IMG/VR virus record: IMGVR_UViG_3300031658_000010
Coordinates: 1 to 53,415 of that record
Length of the DNA stretch: 53,415 nt
Strand: one strand, 5' to 3'
Source: a virus
Each line of letters opens with the position of its first letter. Position 1 is the stretch's first letter. The notes beneath the pieces were generated by a model. The model ran no database searches. It was given only the letters and a program-made list of their open reading frames with translations, and was not told where the DNA came from. The position numbers were made by a program, and so were the translations under genes. Of the stretch, positions 9,008 through 48,605 are shown in pieces.

Positions 9008-10474
9008 ATGGCAGATTTTTCAAGTATAGCTGGACCGTTTAGTGGTGCATTAGGTGGTAAGTCATTCCCAGCAAGTTATCCATTTGCAAAAAGATTTGTA
9101 CAAAATGCAACATCTGCACAAGGAAGTGGAAATAACGGTGTTACTGCATTAGATGACCCAACTTATTTAGGATTCGGTTTGATGTTTGATATTACGTCTC
9201 CATTATTTAATGCTGCATGGATTGGTGATGTACCACCTGGTGAGGTAGCACCTGAACCAGCAGCAACTAAATTAGATACCTTAGCAGGGAATGTTACTGA
9301 TGGTATTAATGGATTGAAAGATAAGATAGGAGGAGCACTAGGTATAGAAAACTTCGGTGGAGCCAAACCTCTAGAGGCTGGTAATACTGCACCTGCATCA
9401 TTTCCAGCTGAAGCATCAGCAGTAGGCTACTTGCATAAAATTGGGGAAGTTCAGCGAATGAAGTATCTGAAAGCATTTATACAAGGACTATTAGAAGTTA
9501 CTAATACTAGACCATACTACTTCCAAACTATTGCAGGTTTGTTAGAAGCCTGGAGTAAAAGCACCGAATTCACAGAGGATCCTTATACTGGTGTTGACGC
9601 TAAAGATGGTGTTACTATCGGTTGCCTAGAGGCTATAGATTTAAAAATGACTGGGTTGTTTAATTTATATAGAATGGCAGTATATGACGAGAGATACAAA
9701 AGATTTGTCTTGCCAAAAAATTTAATGCGGTTTGATGTATATGTAGACGTTCATGAGATAAGAAGATTTAAAGCAGTGAGAAACTGGCTAAAGGCATTAA
9801 ACCCTAGTGATACAACTAAAGATACTAAAGATTTTGTAAATGAAAATAGTTCACGAATTAGATTTAAATTTACAGAGTGTACATTTGACCCTGCTGCAAG
9901 TGGTAAAGTTTTTGATGGTGTAACTAATGTTGGTGGAAACGTAGCAGCAACCGAAATTAAATTTGGGTATGGGTCACTTGAACTAATGTCGCAGTATTCT
10001 GGGTTTGATGATAGTTTAGATGTTAGTAAACAACAAATTAGTTCTAACCCATCGTTCACAGATAAAATTAAGCAGTTTGGAAAGGCTCAGCTTGACAACG
10101 CAGTGCAGGGTGTTGCTAATAAATTAACATCGGCTGTGAATAGTACAATACAAGGTCTTACTTTGGGAAATGTATTTGGTTTAAGAAATGAATTATTAGG
10201 AACTTTAGCAAACCCGCAAGGTTTACTAAACGCAGCGCTAGGTGCGGCTGGCCAAAGTGGATCATTAGATACATTTGGGCAACCTAATAGAAATAATAAT
10301 CTTGGAGATAATCCATTGAGCGATGCAGTTGCCCCATTACAAACTATTAATTCAAATAGAGCATTTGACGATTCTACGGATAGTCATGGTGGACTAAAAA
10401 CAATTAACGCGTTTGGTGCACCTGGACCTGCGCAAGATAACGGAGGTTTAGCCTCATCAAATATTTTTGAATAA
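9008..10474 (+). CDS. Tail tube/baseplate-tube structural protein
   Basis: The 488-residue product contains, at about residues 150-330, a conserved-looking core: VTNTRPYYFQTIAGLLEAW, CLEAIDLKMTGLFNLYRMAV, VLPKNLMRFDVYVDVHEIRR, then strands ending KFGYGSLELMSQ. The second half is strand-rich with a long hairpin character, like tube-fold proteins. The C-terminal 150 residues are low-complexity Asn/Gly/Ser/Ala-rich. It sits between hub and spike genes and overlaps the spike gene by 1 nt (stop TAATG). A role as a tube-fold baseplate component similar in position to T4 gp48/gp54 is plausible, but the homology cannot be proven by eye. Confidence 0.65.
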   Translation: MADFSSIAGPFSGALGGKSFPASYPFAKRFVQNATSAQGSGNNGVTALDDPTYLGFGLMFDITSPLFNAAWIGDVPPGEVAPEPAATKLDTLAGNVTDGINGLKDKIGGALGIENFGGAKPLEAGNTAPASFPAEASAVGYLHKIGEVQRMKYLKAFIQGLLEVTNTRPYYFQTIAGLLEAWSKSTEFTEDPYTGVDAKDGVTIGCLEAIDLKMTGLFNLYRMAVYDERYKRFVLPKNLMRFDVYVDVHEIRRFKAVRNWLKALNPSDTTKDTKDFVNENSSRIRFKFTECTFDPAASGKVFDGVTNVGGNVAATEIKFGYGSLELMSQYSGFDDSLDVSKQQISSNPSFTDKIKQFGKAQLDNAVQGVANKLTSAVNSTIQGLTLGNVFGLRNELLGTLANPQGLLNAALGAAGQSGSLDTFGQPNRNNNLGDNPLSDAVAPLQTINSNRAFDDSTDSHGGLKTINAFGAPGPAQDNGGLASSNIFE

Positions 10475-11331
10475 TGAAAGTAAACCCAAGAAATTTCAAT
10501 GCAGACGATTTAAGAACTACTCAATGGGTAGGTATAGTCGAAGATACTGCTGATGATATCTTCGAAGGAAGGTGTAGGATTAGAGTGTATGGTAAAATGG
10601 ATGACAGAGTAGATCCTGAAGATCCTGATAGTGCATACAAAATTCCAACAGCAGCATTACCGTGGTCAAGACCTCATCAACTAATGTATGGCGGTAGTAA
10701 TACTGGTAGTGGTAAATTTGAAATTCCAAAATTAGGATCTATTGTTAGGATGACTTTTGATAATGGAAATCTTTACCAACCAATATATCATGAGAACATA
10801 TATCCATCTGACGAAACGAAGGCTGAGATTGAAGCTTCATATCAAAATTCACATGTACTTATCTATGATACTGCTTTTGGTTTAACAGGTGGTGAAAATG
10901 GTACAGAAGTTACAAATGATAGGGAGGGGGAACATGTTAAAGTTTTCTTCACTGAGGAGAAAGGTGTAATGATTGATTATACGACAACAGAAGGACCTAC
11001 TTCAATTAACATTAAACCAGATAATTCTGTAGAAATACTAAATGCAAATGGTGATTCTATTGTAATGTTAAATGATGGAAATATTACAATGACTCACTCT
11101 GCTGATGTTAATATAAATTGTGTAAATGCTACTGTTACTGCAACTGGAGAAACTCATATTAATTCACCTAGAATTAAATTAGGAGAAGCAGCAGCTGAGG
11201 CAGTTATTAAAGGTGATACTTTTGCAGGGATATTTGATGCACATACACACATTGGAAATTTGGGAGCACCAACAAGCCCACCGACATCAGTCACTGCACC
11301 ATCACTAAGTGCAAAGAATACTACCGACTAA
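10474..11331 (+). CDS. Baseplate central spike, gp5/gpV-type without lysozyme
   Basis: 285 residues. Residues 12-115 form an OB-fold of the gp5 N-terminal type (WVGIVEDTADDIFEGRCRIR, LPWSRPHQ, PKLGSIVRMTFDNGNLYQPI). Residues 130-235 are repeated short strands (NINIKP-, VMLNDGNITMTHSADVNI-like), a spike beta-helix. The C terminus has DAHTHIGNLGAPTSPP, where HTH is the HxH metal-binding apex motif known in phage spikes such as P2 gpV. T4 gp5 has a lysozyme domain between OB-fold and helix; there is none here and no room for it. It is the trimeric membrane-piercing tip, expected to bind the hub encoded at 7501. Confidence 0.85.
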   Translation: MKVNPRNFNADDLRTTQWVGIVEDTADDIFEGRCRIRVYGKMDDRVDPEDPDSAYKIPTAALPWSRPHQLMYGGSNTGSGKFEIPKLGSIVRMTFDNGNLYQPIYHENIYPSDETKAEIEASYQNSHVLIYDTAFGLTGGENGTEVTNDREGEHVKVFFTEEKGVMIDYTTTEGPTSINIKPDNSVEILNANGDSIVMLNDGNITMTHSADVNINCVNATVTATGETHINSPRIKLGEAAAEAVIKGDTFAGIFDAHTHIGNLGAPTSPPTSVTAPSLSAKNTTD

Positions 11332-11357: not shown

Positions 11358-11723
11358 ATGCCACTATTAACAGACTTATTAGCAACACAACTGGACACTG
11401 CATTTAAAGATGCTTTAGAGATAGGTTTACATGATGCATTTAGAGAATTTCTAAATTTTCAACAAACTGCAACTGATGGGTCAAGCCAGGACCAGTTCGA
11501 GGCCGCTGTTGATTCAGCTGCTAGTGTTGGTGGGGCAATTGGTGGTTCTACATTCAAAGATGCGGCTGCTGATGCAATCGAAGCATTCGTAAAATCTGGT
11601 ACAGTTACAACAGTTGTAGCAACAGCCGTTGTGGTAGCGACAACAGGAACGGCAGTCGCACAAGCAGGTAGTGGGACTGGTGTTGGTTCAGGAACAGGTG
11701 CACCTTTTTCTGGAATATCATAA
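11358..11723 (+). CDS. Small Ala/Gly-rich protein next to the spike
   Basis: 121 residues. Residues 1-60 are an amphipathic helical part (LLTDLLATQLDTAFKDALEI). Residues 75-105 are Ala/Val/Thr-rich (TTVVATAVVVATTGTAVA), hydrophobic enough for one membrane-inserting or tightly packed helix. It ends in a Gly/Ser tail. Small proteins of this composition often follow phage spike genes, from memory of such loci. It may be a spike-associated or tape-like accessory. No recognised domain. Confidence 0.6.
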   Translation: MPLLTDLLATQLDTAFKDALEIGLHDAFREFLNFQQTATDGSSQDQFEAAVDSAASVGGAIGGSTFKDAAADAIEAFVKSGTVTTVVATAVVVATTGTAVAQAGSGTGVGSGTGAPFSGIS

Positions 11724-11831: not shown

Positions 11832-12971
11832 ATGACTGAGCAAGAAATCACAATTCAATTAAGTGATGATCCATTTGATACTAAAGTAATTAAAGTACAA
11901 GTTCCAAAGGGGACAAAACTAATGAGTACTGAATCTTATGCTGCTGATGTTTTAGCAATGTATGAACTTTCAGATTCTGCTATTCAAAAAACTCAATTAA
12001 CAGAAGACAATATATCTTACACTACATCTGGTGAAATTACTTATATCTCGCCTGATAGATCAAGAGCAACTATTGATACAAACTCTAAATATACAGCAAG
12101 TTGCTTTTTAACAAAAGAACCTGAGTATATTGTTGAGCAGATGCAAGTTGGTATGGAGATCGATGTAAAGATCAAAACTTCAAAAAATGGTGATGTTATA
12201 GCTTCCATTAATGATGCGTTGATGGATATTAAGTTAAAAGAAATTAAGGATGCTATAGGTAATAAAACGGTTGGTTTTACTGCCATTGTTAAAGAACTTA
12301 TACATGGTGGTTATTGGGTTGATGTTGCAGGTATTAATTGCTTCATGCCAGGATCTCTTGGTGGTTTAAATAAATTACACGACTTTAATTCTTTAGTAGG
12401 TAAAGAAATTATTGTAATGCCAATAACATATTCACAAGACAAAGCTACAATTGTAGTATCTCACAGAGAATATCTAAGAACAATGATACCAACCAGGATT
12501 CATGAATTGGATGAAAATATAAAAGAAGCTAGAACTGGGTTTGTAACTGGTATAACTAAATTTGGTGTATTTGCCCAATTTGATGATTGTTTAACTGGTT
12601 TAATTCCTAGAGCTGAATTAACTGATAAAATGAAAGAGGCATTAGATAATAGAGATATTAAAGCTGGTGATGAAATAGAATTCTGGGCTAAAGAAATAAT
12701 TTCAGATAAGAAGATTATATTAAGTCAATTAGGTCCTAAGGTTGATCTATGGGATGGGATAGATGAAAAATATAAACCTATGATGATTGTTGAAGGTACC
12801 GTTACTAAGATAACTTCATATGGTGCATTTGTCGAACTTGAAAAAGGTATTAGTGGTTTAATCCACAAATCTAAACTAAAAACTGCTGACTTGACCAAGG
12901 GCGATGTTATCAATGTTAAAATTGGTAGTGTTAATGTTAGTGATCGTAAGATTACTATGAACGTGGCATAA
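11832..12971 (+). CDS. Ribosomal protein S1-like RNA-binding protein (four S1 domains)
   Basis: 379 residues. After about 60 non-S1 residues, four S1-type OB domains can be read at about 62-128, 145-218, 234-300 and 315-379. The last two are textbook: GFVTGITKFGVFAQFDDCL..GLIPRAEL and GTVTKITSYGAFVELEKGIS followed by GLIHKSKL. The second has the S1-protein pattern GGYWVDVAGINCFMPGS. Cellular S1 brings mRNA to the 30S subunit and matters most where Shine-Dalgarno sequences are absent, as in most genes here. The protein could compete with or replace host S1, or act in RNA stability or autoregulation. The gene has its own promoter-like element. Domain calls are strong; the translational role is inferred. 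Confidence 0.88.
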   Translation: MTEQEITIQLSDDPFDTKVIKVQVPKGTKLMSTESYAADVLAMYELSDSAIQKTQLTEDNISYTTSGEITYISPDRSRATIDTNSKYTASCFLTKEPEYIVEQMQVGMEIDVKIKTSKNGDVIASINDALMDIKLKEIKDAIGNKTVGFTAIVKELIHGGYWVDVAGINCFMPGSLGGLNKLHDFNSLVGKEIIVMPITYSQDKATIVVSHREYLRTMIPTRIHELDENIKEARTGFVTGITKFGVFAQFDDCLTGLIPRAELTDKMKEALDNRDIKAGDEIEFWAKEIISDKKIILSQLGPKVDLWDGIDEKYKPMMIVEGTVTKITSYGAFVELEKGISGLIHKSKLKTADLTKGDVINVKIGSVNVSDRKITMNVA

Positions 12972-13013: not shown

Positions 13014-14306
13014 ATGTACACTAACGAACAGCTAAATGCTATATATGCATCAAAGATTGGTTTAGAATTTGAATTCTTTGCTAATGAAGGAATGGATGAA
13101 GTTAAACGAAGCCTTTCCCAGACTCTAAATAAACAAATACGAGTCGAGGAAAAGGCACACAGCGACTTTAAACCTAGTGATGAAATCTTTAAACTAGAGC
13201 CAGATAATTCTGGTGGATCTGGGATGATCGAATTAGTAACAGGCCCAATGCCTTTTGTTGAATCAAAGTTAATCATTGCAAAAACTCTAAAATGGATCAG
13301 GGAGAATGGATCTACTAATGACAGATGCTCTATTCACATTAACATTGCATTCGATGGACACAAACTTGGAACCGCTACTAATGTATCATCTTTGGATATT
13401 GGTAAGTTCGTTCTTAACTTCAACGAAAATGCGGTATACGAAGCATTCCCTGATAGAAAGGATTCTGTTTATGCCAAATCTATAAAATTTATTGTACCAT
13501 TAAGTGGAATGACACAACCGTCTCCTGAGAGAATTTCATGGAAGAATTATATGTTTGTGTCTGAGAAATACTATGGAGTAAACTTTTCTAAAATACCACA
13601 GAACTATATTGAATTTAGATATCTAGGTGGTAAAGATTACGAAAAGAAATATAACACTATAATGAATATGACAGAACATTTTGTTGTATCTTTATATGAA
13701 AGTTTAGTTGACCCTGTTTATAATGCAGAAGATATTAAAAAATTAGATGTTATATTAGAAAAGCATAAAGGTATCGTAGAATCTTACAAAGCATACCGAA
13801 CATTCAAAAGAAATTTTCCTAAAGTCAAATTAATGGTTGATTTACAAACCTATGACCAGATAGTCGAAACTTACTTCCCAAAAATGAGGGAAAAGATATT
13901 TGAACTATTAACAAAAGCAGGACTTACTGAAGGTTTAGTTAATTATGATTCTGATACTGGTAGGATGCAGTTAAAAAATGCTGAATTAATGAAATGCTTT
14001 GAAATACGAGGAATTGATATTGTCGATTCTAAGATTCAAGGAAACCTCATAGGGTGTGATATATTTAGTACTGAATTAATAAATTCCTCAATGATGGAAT
14101 GTAACTTATTCGGTTCGACTGAAGTTGCTGATTCTAAATTAGAAGATTCTTACGTTAGTAAAAATGTATTGTGTAAAGATTCTTATGTATTTGGTATAAG
14201 AGGTGTATTCAGTGGTGAAATGGATGGTGGTATATTTAGAAAAGGTAGAGCAACGAAACTTGCAAGATTTGAAAATACTGAAATTATTGAAATAGAAAAA
14301 ATATAA
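13014..14306 (+). CDS. Amidoligase-family enzyme with C-terminal repeat domain
   Basis: 430 residues. The N-terminal part carries the marks of the amidoligase family, a glutamine-synthetase/carboxylate-amine-ligase-like fold: GLEFEF (16-21), KLEPDNSGG...MIELVTGPM (60-79) and CSIHINI (105-111, matching the family's cGxHvH). Such enzymes use ATP to join an amine to a carboxylate, often peptide-like substrates; the substrate here is unknown. Residues about 335-420 look like short parallel beta-helix or pentapeptide-like rungs (DSKIQGNLIGCDIFSTELIN and similar). The gene sits between an S1-like gene and baseplate genes and has its own promoter-like element. It might modify a virion or host protein. 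Family call good, role open. Confidence 0.75.
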   Translation: MYTNEQLNAIYASKIGLEFEFFANEGMDEVKRSLSQTLNKQIRVEEKAHSDFKPSDEIFKLEPDNSGGSGMIELVTGPMPFVESKLIIAKTLKWIRENGSTNDRCSIHINIAFDGHKLGTATNVSSLDIGKFVLNFNENAVYEAFPDRKDSVYAKSIKFIVPLSGMTQPSPERISWKNYMFVSEKYYGVNFSKIPQNYIEFRYLGGKDYEKKYNTIMNMTEHFVVSLYESLVDPVYNAEDIKKLDVILEKHKGIVESYKAYRTFKRNFPKVKLMVDLQTYDQIVETYFPKMREKIFELLTKAGLTEGLVNYDSDTGRMQLKNAELMKCFEIRGIDIVDSKIQGNLIGCDIFSTELINSSMMECNLFGSTEVADSKLEDSYVSKNVLCKDSYVFGIRGVFSGEMDGGIFRKGRATKLARFENTEIIEIEKI

Positions 14307-14312
14307 AATAAC

Positions 14313-15176
14313 ATGGCGAATACAAATACTTATTGTAATGATCCTGATGAAGCAGCATGCTTAGATGCATTGATCAAAGAAATTAACGAGGAGCTAACTA
14401 TTGCTTGTCAAATACCCTTCACAGTTCCTAAAAAAGAATTGGCTAATATCATCAAAAGAGCAAAAGGTTACTTCTACAAAATATATGAAGATAGTGTTGA
14501 ACAGATGTATATTGCATTACCAGCTGGCGCATTAGCTAAACAGACATTTAACCAAGGTGTACCGTTTGGGACTGGTGAAGCTAATGAAGTGATAACTAAC
14601 AAAAACCAAATATCAAACCCAAGAGGAGTTGTACAAATGCCGTCAAGGGTATATTCAGTTAATGCTGTATTTGAAATTGGTGGATTCTCTGGAGAAGATG
14701 GTGGTTTTGGTAGTGATGGATTTAATGCAGGTGATGTAGATTTTTCAGTTGATAAGTTTATCTATAATGATGTATATGGCGCAGGTTTAGGAAGTGAAAA
14801 TTTAATGTACTATGTAGTAAATTCATTATTTATGGATAATGCTAGACAAGTACTATTACCACAAATATCATTCACATATAATAGGTTAACTAAAAAGTTT
14901 AGATTCCAAGGAGAATTACCAAAACAGGCAGTTATATTTGAAATCTTTTCAACCGTTCCTGATTGCGCGCTATTCCAAGATGAAGCTTTTATTAGATACT
15001 GTATAGGTCAAGCAAAAATTCAATTAGCTAGAATACTAGGAACCTTCTCATTTAATCTACCAGGTAATATTACTATTAACTATGATATGATTTCAACTGA
15101 GGGTAGAGAAGAAGTAGATAGAATAGTTGAAGAAATTAAAAACGATGAAGGTGTTGATTATTTTTTCACTGGATAA
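14313..15176 (+). CDS. Tail/baseplate structural protein, 287 aa
   Basis: It starts 6 nt after the amidoligase gene. Residues 15-70 are helical with CQIPFTVPKKELANIIKRAK followed by an aromatic, acidic stretch (YFYKIYEDSVEQMY). The middle is Gly-rich (FSGEDGGFGSDGFNAGD). The C-terminal half alternates strands and helices (QVLLPQISFTYNRLTKKF). No enzyme motif. The position directly before gp25-like and gp6-like genes suggests a virion protein of the wedge/tail region. No named family recognised. Confidence 0.6.
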   Translation: MANTNTYCNDPDEAACLDALIKEINEELTIACQIPFTVPKKELANIIKRAKGYFYKIYEDSVEQMYIALPAGALAKQTFNQGVPFGTGEANEVITNKNQISNPRGVVQMPSRVYSVNAVFEIGGFSGEDGGFGSDGFNAGDVDFSVDKFIYNDVYGAGLGSENLMYYVVNSLFMDNARQVLLPQISFTYNRLTKKFRFQGELPKQAVIFEIFSTVPDCALFQDEAFIRYCIGQAKIQLARILGTFSFNLPGNITINYDMISTEGREEVDRIVEEIKNDEGVDYFFTG

Positions 15177-43505: not shown

Positions 43506-45011
43506 ATGGAACTATCCCTATCAGAAAATAAAAAGTTTTTGGTCATCGATGCATGTACTGAATTAGAGTACGAGCAGTTGAAGAGCAGTTTAACTAAAAA
43601 GATTGAAGGGTGGAGATTTCATCCTTTAGTTAAAAAGAAAGTATGGGACGGTAACGTCTCCTTTGTAAAAAGAAATAAAATACCAGCTGGTTTATGGAAA
43701 GAGATATTAGATATCTGTAAAGATTATGATTTCCAATGTTCTTTAAATGGTATCACTGATATTTTTGATACTGACATCAACGAAGAATCATTTAGGTTAT
43801 GGGTAACAAGTATTTTTGAAAAACACCCTAATTTCAAACCTAGAGAATATCAAATAGATGCAGCATTTAAAATATTAAAATATAGAAGGTGTTTAGCTGA
43901 GCTTGCAACATCTGCAGGTAAAACTCTAATATCCTTTATGGTAGTTGCATATATGATGGATAAGTTAGGAAAGAAAAAAATCTTAATGATTGTTCCTAAT
44001 GTAAATTTAGTATTACAAGCTACTGGTGATTTCGATGAATATAACAGGTGTGGCGTTCCATTAAAGACTCAGCAAGTATATGCAGGTGCAGAGATTAGAA
44101 AAAGTTCTAACTTAGTAATAGGTACATACCAATCGCTAGTTAAAAAAGATGAGGAATACTTTAGTCAATTTGATGCTGTGTTTGTCGATGAAACTCATAA
44201 AGCAAAAGCTGCATCTATTCAAAAGATAATGGATAAATGTTGGCACTGTGATTTTAGGTTTGGTTTAAGTGGAACAATACCTAAGAAAGGAACTGTTAAT
44301 AGACTAAGCTTAATGTCGGCAATGGGACCTTTGGTTACTCAAGTAAAGGCAAGCCAATTACAACAGCAAGGATTTATTGCTTCATGTAAAGTTATGCAGC
44401 TCCACATGGATTATGCAACTGATGCTCAGAAAGAATCATTCTCGTTTCTTTCAAAGAACCCACAAGATAGACAGAAATTATTTGGATTAGAACAAAACTT
44501 TATTAATCAAAGTGAAAAAAGATTAGATTTTGTTTGCCAAGTAATTAAAAAATCAACATCAAATTCATTAGTACTATTTCATAAAATAGCATACGGCGAA
44601 AAGGTGTATCAAAAACTAAGACAAATAACTGACAAGAAAGTTTACTATGTAGATGGTTCAGTTAATGTAGATATAAGAGAAGAGTTTAAAGCCAGGATGG
44701 AAAAAAACGATGATGTTATTATTGTAGCATCATATGGAACATTCTCAACCGGTATATCTATAAAAAATATACATAACATATTCTTCACTGAAAGTTTTAA
44801 ATCAGAAGTGATCATTAGACAAAGTATAGGTAGGGGATTAAGAAAACATGAATCAAAGGATGTAGTGAAAATCTATGACTTTATTGATGATTTTAGATAT
44901 AAAGCCGAGGAACATGACTGGGTTAATTACGTTTATAGACATGGTATTGCTAGGCGAACAATATATAAAGAAGAAAAGTTTCCGTTTGATGTACAAAACA
45001 TCAGATTCTAA
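43506..45011 (+). CDS. uvsW: UvsW-like superfamily 2 helicase
   Basis: 501 residues, T4 UvsW being 503. An N-terminal small domain (about 1-100) precedes the helicase core: Q-motif-like PREYQIDAA (112-120), Walker A ATSAGKT (134-140), motif II VDETH (227-231), motif III GLSGT (253-257) and motif VI IIRQSIGRGLRKH near residue 440. UvsW unwinds R-loops, stalled forks and branched structures, and switches T4 from origin- to recombination-dependent replication. It follows the UvsY candidate by 3 nt. Confidence 0.92.
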   Translation: MELSLSENKKFLVIDACTELEYEQLKSSLTKKIEGWRFHPLVKKKVWDGNVSFVKRNKIPAGLWKEILDICKDYDFQCSLNGITDIFDTDINEESFRLWVTSIFEKHPNFKPREYQIDAAFKILKYRRCLAELATSAGKTLISFMVVAYMMDKLGKKKILMIVPNVNLVLQATGDFDEYNRCGVPLKTQQVYAGAEIRKSSNLVIGTYQSLVKKDEEYFSQFDAVFVDETHKAKAASIQKIMDKCWHCDFRFGLSGTIPKKGTVNRLSLMSAMGPLVTQVKASQLQQQGFIASCKVMQLHMDYATDAQKESFSFLSKNPQDRQKLFGLEQNFINQSEKRLDFVCQVIKKSTSNSLVLFHKIAYGEKVYQKLRQITDKKVYYVDGSVNVDIREEFKARMEKNDDVIIVASYGTFSTGISIKNIHNIFFTESFKSEVIIRQSIGRGLRKHESKDVVKIYDFIDDFRYKAEEHDWVNYVYRHGIARRTIYKEEKFPFDVQNIRF

Positions 45012-45039
45012 TATAGAATATCTTTTAAGTAAGACATGG

Positions 45040-45048
45040 ATATATAAA
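45040..45048 (+). promoter_or_regulatory. ATATATAA promoter-like element
   Basis: GATATATAAAAAA, one base off the usual element, lies 19 nt before the start at 45067, opening the capsid-targeting-like gene cluster. Confidence 0.45.
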
Positions 45049-45066
45049 AAAAATAAAACAACTAAC

Positions 45067-46818
45067 ATGAAATCAGTCAAAAAGTTTTCTGCAATGTCTG
45101 CTAAGGATCAACCGATCACAGAATCTGCAAAAGTAAGCCAAGAAGCTGTCGAAGAATTGATCAAAAAGATTGGTTTTAACAGTATAGATGAATTAAAGAA
45201 AGAGAAAGATCTTCTTTCTAAACTAGAAGCACTATCCAAAAGCTTTGCTAATAAAGATGATATATCTGAAGAAGAGATCGAAGAAGATCGTACAGAAGAT
45301 ATTGAAGATGAAGTAAATGCAAAAGGTAAACCTAAATCTGCTGAAGGCGAAGGTGATGCTAAACAGGGCGATGAAGAAGTCGTAGCTGCTGAAGAGGTAG
45401 AAGAAGTAGAGGAAGATGCTACTGAAGAAGAAATAGTATCTGACGAAGAAGCTGTTCCTGCTGAAGAAGAAGTAGAAGATGAAACTGAAGTAGAAGTACC
45501 AGTCGCAGATGAAGAAGTTGAAACACCTAAAGCTACAAAAAGAATTATGGCTTTTGAAGATTTCATTAAAGAAAAAGAAGAAACTATTAATAAGAACGTT
45601 AATTATCGTGATGATAATGAAGAAGAAGAAGACTATGCTGTTCCTGTTGCTGCTTCTGCTGATCCCCTTTCAGAGTCCGATGAGTCAAAAGGAAAGGACG
45701 ATGAAAAAGATGGTGATGAGTTAGAAGACAAAGGAGATAAGAAAGTTGATTCTGAGGATGATAAAGAAAAAGCAGACCATTATAAAGGAGCTGTTAAATC
45801 TGATGATGCTCAAATCAAATCTTTAAAGAAAGATGCTAAGTTTGATAAAGAGGAAGAGGAAGATGCTGAAAAGAATGAATCTGCTATTATGTCTTTTTCT
45901 AATTTTGTAAATGAAGCCTATGACAAAGTTGTTTGGGGTGGAAATAAAGGTGATGATTCTGAGTCTGAAGAAGATGAAGAAGATTATGAAGATGATGATA
46001 AAACTGATGAAGGTTTTGATGAAGTAACACTTGGTGGAAATAAAGGTGATAAATCTAAAACCAAAAAAGGTGAAGAAGATTATGAAGATGAGGTTGATGA
46101 AGATCGCGCCGAGGATATCGAAGATGAAGTAAACGCAAAGGGTAAACCTAAAGCAGTTAAAGAAGCTAAACAACAAAGTAACTTATTAGATTGGTTTAAT
46201 GATTTAACTGATAAGGATCTAAAATCAAAAGGATCATTTTTGAAACTCGGTAAATCTGCTGGGTATGATAAAAAAGATTTAGAGACTATTATATCTGATT
46301 TTGAACAAGGTGATGAGAGTTATATTCAGTGGGCTAAAGACGTGCATGTTAAAGAAGGTGTTGCTGAAGTAATTGCTAAAGTTGAAAAAGCTGAAGTAAA
46401 AGATCAAGTAGCTGGAGCTGACGGTATTGCTATTCCAACAATTAAAGGTGATGGTTCAGAAACTGCAGCTGGTATTGCTGGTGATATAATGAATAAGGGT
46501 AAAGTTAAAAACTTATCTGCATTAGCTGGTAAATTAGTTACAACAGATCAAAAGGTTACTGAAGTAATTCCTGATGAGGCAAACGATGTATCTGAAGATG
46601 GCATTGAAATTCCATTAGTAAAAGAAGCTAAGATTAATGAGGAAGATATTACTTCTGATGATCAATTCAAAGAATACGCAACTGCAGTGTTGAAAAAAGC
46701 ATTCGGTGATGATTATGATGAAGCTAAAGCAACTGAAGTAATTGACGGTTTAATTTCTAAACATGATGGAGACTATGGTGCAATGGTTGGAGCTTTACAA
46801 TCTACTATGGGATCATAA
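45067..46818 (+). CDS. Extremely acidic repeat protein, candidate prohead core/internal protein
   Basis: 583 residues from the ATG at 45067. An in-frame ATG at 44875 would overlap the helicase by 137 nt and give a non-matching start. The 45067 start gives MKSVKKFSAMSAKDQPITES, like other capsid-targeting starts here, with a site ITE/S, and sits 19 nt after a promoter-like element. Long Glu/Asp-rich tracts fill residues 65-370, with two internal targeting-like segments at 161 (MAFEDFIKE) and 275 (MSFSNFVNEA) and duplicated motifs EDxxEDIEDEVNAKGKPK and GGNKGD. The C-terminal part (about 375-583) is more structured (NLLDWFNDLTDKDLKSKG). Acidic composition recalls T4 core proteins gp67/gp68. Confidence 0.7.
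   Translation: MKSVKKFSAMSAKDQPITESAKVSQEAVEELIKKIGFNSIDELKKEKDLLSKLEALSKSFANKDDISEEEIEEDRTEDIEDEVNAKGKPKSAEGEGDAKQGDEEVVAAEEVEEVEEDATEEEIVSDEEAVPAEEEVEDETEVEVPVADEEVETPKATKRIMAFEDFIKEKEETINKNVNYRDDNEEEEDYAVPVAASADPLSESDESKGKDDEKDGDELEDKGDKKVDSEDDKEKADHYKGAVKSDDAQIKSLKKDAKFDKEEEEDAEKNESAIMSFSNFVNEAYDKVVWGGNKGDDSESEEDEEDYEDDDKTDEGFDEVTLGGNKGDKSKTKKGEEDYEDEVDEDRAEDIEDEVNAKGKPKAVKEAKQQSNLLDWFNDLTDKDLKSKGSFLKLGKSAGYDKKDLETIISDFEQGDESYIQWAKDVHVKEGVAEVIAKVEKAEVKDQVAGADGIAIPTIKGDGSETAAGIAGDIMNKGKVKNLSALAGKLVTTDQKVTEVIPDEANDVSEDGIEIPLVKEAKINEEDITSDDQFKEYATAVLKKAFGDDYDEAKATEVIDGLISKHDGDYGAMVGALQSTMGS
45283..46152 (+). repeat. Duplicated 54-nt coding module in the acidic protein
   Basis: Copies at 45283-45336 and 46099-46152. 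They encode the same 18 residues except one (EDRTEDIEDEVNAKGKPK against EDRA...). Seven bases differ, five of them silent single-codon changes, so the protein has been kept while the DNA drifted. Confidence 0.85.
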
Positions 46819-47333: not shown

Positions 47334-48605
47334 ATGAAACATATAAAACTGTTTGAACAATGGCTGACTGACAAAAGTCAGCCATTGTTGTTAGAAGGTG
47401 GAGCTGCTGGTCATATGAAGCATCCATTTGATAATAAGAACTTAACATTTAGAGACTTTAAAAATCTCATTAATTCTGGTTTAAGTGGTGAATTGAATTT
47501 CGAGGAAGCACCTACAGAAAAAACAGATGGCCAAAACTTATTTGCTACAATACAAGACGGTGAAGTTAAATTCGCAAGAAATCAAGGTGAAATGAGATCA
47601 CCTTTAGATTTACAAGGAATTAATCAAAAGTTTGACGGTCATGCTAGTAAATTAGTGCAGGATACTTTTCAGTTTGCCGCCGCTGATTTAGCAAACTTAT
47701 TAATAAAGCTTCCAGTTAAAACACAGGATGAAGTATTTGATAATGGTAAGAACTTCATGAATATGGAATTAATATACTCAAAGAATCCTAATGTTATCCA
47801 TTATGATATTGATGTTATACAATTTCATGGTATTAAAAAGACAGACGGTGATGGTAAAATTATTGGAGATGATCCATCTGCTGCTAAAAAAATAGCCGGA
47901 GTTCTTAAGAAGCTTAAATCGGATATCGGTAAAACTTTTACGATAATCCCTCCAAAGGTTCTAGCATTAAGAAAGGATATTAACTTTGATGAAAATGTAG
48001 CTAAATTTATTAAAAAGGTTGAAGACTTGAAGAATGTATATAATTTATCAGACGACGATGAGGTTTCAAAATATCACGAAATGTGGTGGAGAGATCAAAT
48101 CGAAGCAAACTTCCCTGAACTATCACAACAGCAAAAAGAAGGTTTATTATTAAGATGGGCATATGCTGATAAAAAGACACTTAATCTAAGATCTCTTGAT
48201 AAAGATCTAGGTAAAGAAAAGGCAGCAATCATTAAGAAGTTTGATAAAGAAGATGTTAAAAAGAAACAAAAAGAAAACATTAGACCGTTTGAAGATCTGT
48301 TCTTAGAGTTAGGGAGTGTTATATTAAAGAATGCAAGTAACTTCGTAGCAGCTAATCCTACTAAAGAAATGCAAAGACTTCACAAGCAAATCAAAGCAGC
48401 AGCAGAAGGTATTAAAAAGAGTGGTAGTTTAGACCAGATTGAAAAGGTAACTAAAGAACTTGAAAGATTAGATAGGATTGGTGGAGTAGAATCAATCATA
48501 CCAACAGAAGGTCTTGTATTTAAGTACAAAGGTACTACTTATAAATTAACTGGAACTTTTGCTGCAATTAATCAGTTGATGGGTATTATGAGGTACGGTA
48601 GATAG
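47334..48605 (+). CDS. KxxG nucleotidyltransferase (RNA/DNA-ligase-like), capsid-targeted candidate
   Basis: 423 residues. Covalent nucleotidyltransferase motifs: motif I EKTDGQN with lysine K63 (KxxG), a motif III-like MNMELIY, motif IV EGLVFK (392-397) and motif V YKLTG (403-407). A long helical insert lies between motifs III and IV. The N terminus MKHIKLFEQWLTDKSQPLLL ends in LLE/GG at residue 21, a possible prohead-protease site that would leave the enzyme domain intact. Such enzymes activate and join nucleic-acid ends; substrate here unknown. A polynucleotide ligase or RNA-repair role is inferred from motifs only. Confidence 0.7.
   Translation: MKHIKLFEQWLTDKSQPLLLEGGAAGHMKHPFDNKNLTFRDFKNLINSGLSGELNFEEAPTEKTDGQNLFATIQDGEVKFARNQGEMRSPLDLQGINQKFDGHASKLVQDTFQFAAADLANLLIKLPVKTQDEVFDNGKNFMNMELIYSKNPNVIHYDIDVIQFHGIKKTDGDGKIIGDDPSAAKKIAGVLKKLKSDIGKTFTIIPPKVLALRKDINFDENVAKFIKKVEDLKNVYNLSDDDEVSKYHEMWWRDQIEANFPELSQQQKEGLLLRWAYADKKTLNLRSLDKDLGKEKAAIIKKFDKEDVKKKQKENIRPFEDLFLELGSVILKNASNFVAANPTKEMQRLHKQIKAAAEGIKKSGSLDQIEKVTKELERLDRIGGVESIIPTEGLVFKYKGTTYKLTGTFAAINQLMGIMRYGR

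Follow-up and report, generated by a model that had tools for sequence, protein, structure and literature searches.

Analysis of the 53,415-nucleotide viral DNA studied here (IMG/VR record IMGVR_UViG_3300031658_000010, hereafter the window) revealed, next to genes for baseplate and head-tail adaptor proteins, an intact ORF running from ATG to TAA and encoding a protein of 379 aa with four S1 domains (Table 1). Pfam assigned the protein to the S1 family with an E value of 1.2e-19, and two of the domains passed independently, the remaining two being recognised through bS1 profiles, through alignment to bacterial bS1 and in an AlphaFold2 model. This model, built from an input of 29 sequences (mean pLDDT 76.8), showed four beta-barrel units at the residue ranges listed in Table 1, with pLDDT values mostly between 75 and 88, together with a short beta hairpin (residues 1-24) and two helices (37-43 and 48-59). 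Its pTM of 0.47 is presumably the consequence of loose linkage between domains, and since such flexibility keeps whole-model TM-scores low, only domain-level matches were trusted. Residues 1-30, listed in Table 1 as phage-specific, are near-identical across the close clade.

Table 1. Features of the S1 gene and its surroundings, with positions in the window.
Feature	Coordinates	Strand	Basis
Baseplate hub / tail lysozyme-like, conserved upstream neighbour	10474..11331	+	Neighbourhood comparison
Element AATATATAA resembling a late promoter, 39 nt before the S1 start codon	11793..11801	+	Motif count
Phage bS1-like protein, four S1 (OB) domains	11832..12971	+	Sequence searches, profiles, alignment, AlphaFold2 model, Foldseek
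Phage-specific N terminus (residues 1-30), predicted to form a beta hairpin, low pLDDT	11832..11921	+	Alignment and model
Helical segment resembling the anchor (residues 32-59), in which Tyr44 lines up with E. coli bS1 Phe9	11925..12008	+	Model, alignment; contacts from PMC10123108
S1 domain 1, residues ~61-127, Lys86 aligned to uS2-contacting Lys43	12012..12212	+	Alignment and model
S1 domain 2, residues ~146-211, with the signature FMPGSLxGxNKL of the phage family	12267..12464	+	Alignment and model
S1 domain 3, residues ~231-299	12522..12728	+	Pfam and model
S1 domain 4, residues ~317-379, protein terminates in domain 4	12780..12968	+	Pfam and model
Conserved downstream neighbour, 430 aa, function not assigned	13014..14306	+	Neighbourhood comparison
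Head-tail adaptor Ad2-like, conserved downstream neighbour	14313..15176	+	Neighbourhood comparison

Profile searches against NCBIfam placed the protein with ribosomal S1. The bS1 models aligned it from residue 55-65 to residue 376, with E values from 5.5e-42 to 1e-22, against 6e-15 for the next non-bS1 family and about 1e-14 for CvfD/GSP13. The CvfD/GSP13, PNPase and RNase R models gave far weaker scores and matched one or two domains, so that none of these generic S1 RNA-binding families was the best profile match. The best PDB sequence matches found by phmmer were all bS1, colinear with residues 58-320 of the E. coli protein, and the top PDB matches of Foldseek were bS1 in 30S mRNA delivery complexes (9gut_B, 2.2e-24; 9guv_B, 1.8e-20), with the bS1 of the 30S pre-initiation complex 9guq_B also matched (TM on the target, 0.69); profiles, sequence matches and fold matches were thus specific to bS1, beyond the generic S1 domain. 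Identity to Bacteroidota bS1 was about 22-25%, colinear from the anchor through domains 1-4, after which the window protein stops, in contrast to the six domains of its Bacteroidota counterparts. However, the NCBIfam equivalog cut-offs of every bS1 model were missed (143.8 of 624 bits, 128.7 of 577 and 127.4 of 368), and the protein was therefore filed as a bS1 homologue and not as bS1 itself. Among viral proteins, the best Foldseek match was the S1 motif protein A0A7S9STL2 of Virus NIOZ-UU157 (380 aa, 78% identical), for which no functional study was found in the library searched and which is known by database annotation alone.

In E. coli, bS1 is held on uS2 by Phe5, Phe9 and Lys43, among other residues, and the mRNA pocket of its domain 2 is lined by Lys117, Phe120 and Phe130 (PMC10123108). 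In the alignment, Phe9, Lys43, Phe120 and Phe130 correspond to Tyr44, Lys86, Tyr161 and Phe171 of the window protein, and Phe5 and Lys117 are substituted by Val40 and His158. As read from the alignment, the uS2 anchor appears to be kept in part, with Tyr44 and Lys86 (the latter in loop 2 of domain 1) present and Phe5 absent. When aligned with Bacteroidota bS1, Tyr44, Lys86 and Phe171 did not vary, nor did G245, F247, Y330, G331, F333 and H345 in domains 3 and 4, and position 86 is Lys or Arg across most of the phage family. In addition, divergent phage relatives (L212, L213, L229, L248 and Lak) begin with FDWD or FNW segments like those of Bacteroidota bS1, a feature that connects the N terminus with the Bacteroidota lineage. 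Taken as a whole, these data agree with a preliminary description of the locus that had read four S1 domains, a distinct N terminus (which holds for residues 1-35) and homology to S1-type ribosomal proteins, and the window protein is, judged from its sequence, a specific bS1 homologue and not a loose S1-domain protein. The further remark that four domains make it unlike bacterial S1 is correct with respect to the six-domain Bacteroidota proteins but not in general, as four domains are common in Firmicutes and Actinobacteria and are found in 33% of bacterial bS1 (PMC6705787).

A scan of IMG/VR with the window protein recovered 38 loci with identities of 59-96%, and a scan with the family alignment showed that at least 532 loci encode a relative; the family is also present in phages of 462-735 kb. 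In the tree, all phage copies formed a single group apart from bacterial bS1 with 100/100 support, joined to the latter by a very long branch (2.4 changes per site), and this long branch, together with the few outgroups, is compatible with a placement of the phage group either inside or beside Bacteroidota bS1. The phage copies have in common the signature FMP[GN][ST]LxGxN in domain 2, which, along with the fully supported group, points to common ancestry with the rpS1 copies of huge phages. Thus, the copy of LR756500 (462 kb) is 45% identical to the window protein over 96% and lies in the same gene neighbourhood, and those of LR745206, LR756501, LR756502, LR756504 and Lak carry the domain-2 signature. 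We take these six sets of sequences to be genomes of Al-Shayeb et al. Between close copies, dN/dS ranged from 0.07 to 0.17, and the phage S1 gene is under purifying selection. Recent capture from a host was rejected in view of the long branch and of a search, of low reach, in which peptides taken from the window protein revealed no encoded relative among 84,980 genomes of bacteria and archaea.

Several tblastn matches from the phage collection that resembled bacterial DNA were left out of this analysis, namely an Acinetobacter "phage", Listeria/Enterococcus wastewater clones and human faecal clones. Records CAKLQH020000011, OR846962, OR846668, MT835478 and similar ones, labelled as phage, apparently carry bacterial chromosomal rpsA, and the Acinetobacter record shows the order cmk-rpsA-himD. 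Separately, a second ORF of 601-646 aa with one S1 domain was seen in phages of 634-642 kb (W04:195391-195630, W05:449287-449496 and W06:71423-71671).

Comparison of the gene neighbourhoods revealed, in nearly all examined IMG/VR loci, an S1 gene with the baseplate hub gene on one side and the 13014 and Ad2-like genes on the other, and the same hub-S1-Ad2 arrangement in the 462 kb LR756500 and in contigs of 246-294 kb. In LR745206, LR756501, LR756502, LR756504 and Lak, the stretch of about 10 kb around S1 did not reveal these neighbours. A small ORF just 5' of S1 (11,358-11,723) is fast-evolving or replaced in relatives, with both of its flanks conserved. The element AATATATAA was found 12 times on the plus strand of the window and never on the minus strand, and 9 of 45 genes, S1 among them, carry it 22-39 nt before the start, compared with 0.8% of random positions; the S1 genes of relatives are preceded by similar elements. 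On these counts, it is likely a late-promoter element of the phage group, and it is similar to the late promoters known from T4-like phages. Given the position in a tail/baseplate cassette and this late-promoter-like element of its own, S1 is probably made alongside the structural proteins. A scan of the window for sigma-70-like promoters performed no better than chance, and neither tRNA genes nor Rfam families were found in it. Elsewhere in the window, a helicase ORF (43,506-45,011) and the ORF at 44,875-46,818 share 137 nt, and the latter of the two probably begins further downstream; a 423 aa protein (47,334-48,605) showed a sub-threshold match to the N-terminal domain of EF-G-binding protein (E 0.008).

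The preliminary description had also stated that gene starts in the window lack Shine-Dalgarno (SD) sites and have A-rich leaders, as in Bacteroidota, and had linked this to the function of S1. The first statement was confirmed, as AGGAG, GGAGG or GAGGT sites were present at 0 of 39 gene starts, the leaders are 57-58% A, and their mean anti-SD pairing energy was -0.27, against 0.04 for shuffled leaders (in phage T4, the positive control, 73% SD-like 4-mers and -5.1 kcal/mol were obtained). The assignment to Bacteroidota was supported too, the host phylum being probably this one because of the baseplate relatives in Flavobacteriia phages, the bS21 motif described below, the leader type and the bS1 N terminus. 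The link to S1 function, in contrast, did not hold. Six cultivated Bacteroidota phages in which no S1 domain was found at E<=1 (Tenacibaculum PTm1 and pT24, Flavobacterium MaF61 and FCL-2, Chryseobacterium MA9V-2 and Cellulophaga phi14:2) were equally SD-less and showed the same A enrichment at positions -13/-12 and -3, which are among those important in F. johnsoniae (PMC6847099). The absence of SD sites was therefore rejected as evidence for S1 function and is best read as a trait of the host group; that the genome rarely has such sites is true but not diagnostic. Likewise, no leader signature peculiar to S1-bearing phages was found in comparison with S1-lacking ones, and hence no mark of selective recruitment. 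The correlation between phage rpS1 and SD-poor genomes given by Al-Shayeb et al. (PMC7162821) is not specific according to these S1-less controls and may be confounded by host group.

A gene for bS21 was found in seven of the eight window-clade contigs that reach more than 20 kb upstream of S1, about 20-36 kb upstream of it and on the same strand; as the window begins 11.8 kb upstream of S1, the lack of bS21 in it is uninformative. Carriers include the 181 kb contig G003, contigs G063 and G069-G073, and four huge phages. Contig G068 lacked bS21 despite 39 kb of upstream sequence, and no bS21 match was found in G066, G067, LR756500 or Lak, all of which have S1. The phage bS21 keeps the motif KAIYQQ/KAIYVQ with Tyr54, and the tyrosine of this motif helps to sequester the anti-SD in Flavobacterium. 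In E. coli ribosomes, domain 1 of bS1 is connected to the 16S rRNA through bS21 (PMC10123108), so the phage S1 and the phage bS21 would be neighbours. In the one case inspected, the phage bS21 gene lies near a ligase and a tail-fibre gene. The bS21 genes of relatives (L162:1621-1812 and L163), with the Tyr54-type motif, have an SD-less leader containing TATAAATA, and so might not be subject to the SD-dependent autoregulation that acts on rpsU of the host. In the 735 kb phage LR756501, where SD-like sites are above chance, unlike in the other phages compared, the bS21 gene is preceded by a strong SD-like site, AAAGGAGGATAA (L164:878-930).

The presence of rpS1 in huge phages, a proposal of ribosome hijacking and the lack of SD sites are described by Al-Shayeb et al. 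2020 (PMC7162821), and that rpS1 very likely belongs to the same family as the window protein. The general idea of a host ribosome re-equipped by phages had been published before; the marine clade, domain mapping, cassette position and anchor residues given here do not appear in the part of its main text consulted. What this work adds is the pairing of bS1 with bS21, the constant position of the gene within the tail cassette and the negative outcome of the SD control. The bS21 of Bacteroidota myoviruses follows the same strategy, in that a host-type protein belonging to the 30S platform is tied to late genes, and is expressed late, with S1 not mentioned (Chen et al. 2022, PMC9723584); its gene lies within the TerL/MCP block and on the reverse strand, unlike the bS21 of the window clade, upstream of S1 and on its strand. 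The bS1 of the jumbo cyanophage PhiMa05, likened here by description, is also phage-encoded, but is Vampirovibrio-derived and accompanied by five further ribosomal proteins (PMC13157829).

The homology to bS1, the Bacteroidota type of the phage and the partial retention of the anchor make a ribosomal role the likeliest, and with modest confidence we favour a phage-specific bS1 homologue that would act late in infection and on the 30S subunit of the host. We infer that such a paralogue, consisting of an N-terminal ribosome anchor and S1 domains 1-4 without the Bacteroidota-type domains 5-6, would be made with the structural proteins from the tail/baseplate cassette, would dock on the host 30S at uS2 near the mRNA exit, where it would replace the loosely bound bS1 of the host or compete with it, and would hand A-rich unstructured leaders to the ribosome with a preference for phage mRNAs; together with the phage bS21, it may remodel the same ribosomal site. 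Counting against this reading are the missed cut-offs, the very long branch, the replacement of Phe5 and Lys117, the likeness of leaders in phages with and without S1, and the cultivated relatives PTm1, pT24, MaF61 and MA9V-2, which have similar baseplates but neither S1 nor bS21; moreover, Salah et al. (as quoted in PMC3155529) predicted that bS1 with four domains, as in Firmicutes, is non-functional in initiation.

The long divergence from bS1 would also suit an RNA chaperone working off the ribosome, which would coat or unfold late phage mRNAs or tune an RNase without binding stably to ribosomes. The choice between "on or off the ribosome" is left open by Al-Shayeb et al. (PMC7162821), and host S1 has extra roles in T4 (RNase RegB) and Q-beta (PMC13157829). 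However, the anchor segment and domains 1-2, responsible for ribosome binding in E. coli, keep bS1-specific features, and bS21 co-occurs with the phage S1, so that we regard such a chaperone as unlikely. The truncation after domain 4, compared with six-domain Bacteroidota bS1, and the retained part of the anchor could alternatively denote a dominant competitor that fills the bS1 site and, being a poor recruiter of host mRNAs without domains 5-6, damps host translation; yet the mRNA-binding domains 3 and 4 keep aromatic and His residues that a mere blocker would not need, and a late cassette is late for host shut-off, which makes this role quite unlikely. Finally, a packaged protein or tail-assembly helper would explain why, in very diverse phages, the gene invariably sits between those for the baseplate hub and Ad2/wedge, but seems very improbable, as the AlphaFold2 model has no assembly-type extra domain, no hub or Ad2 gene was found next to S1 in LR745206, LR756501, LR756502, LR756504 and Lak, and the cultivated relatives PTm1, pT24, MaF61 and MA9V-2 build similar baseplates without S1, and without bS21 as well.

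In conclusion, with a late-acting bS1 homologue as the preferred reading, the co-occurrence of S1 and bS21 in most relatives suggests that, at a late stage of infection, these phages refit the ribosome of their host. More tentatively, and with considerable doubt, a co-adapted pair of bS1-like protein and bS21 might take the place of the two host counterparts at the mRNA exit site, so that a host without usable SD pairing would acquire a 30S initiation platform specific to the phage; if true, this pair would amount to a virus-made specialised ribosome. For the question of how Bacteroidota ribosomes choose start codons without SD pairing, the minimal phage bS1 and bS21 would represent a natural tool to probe the contribution of bS1.
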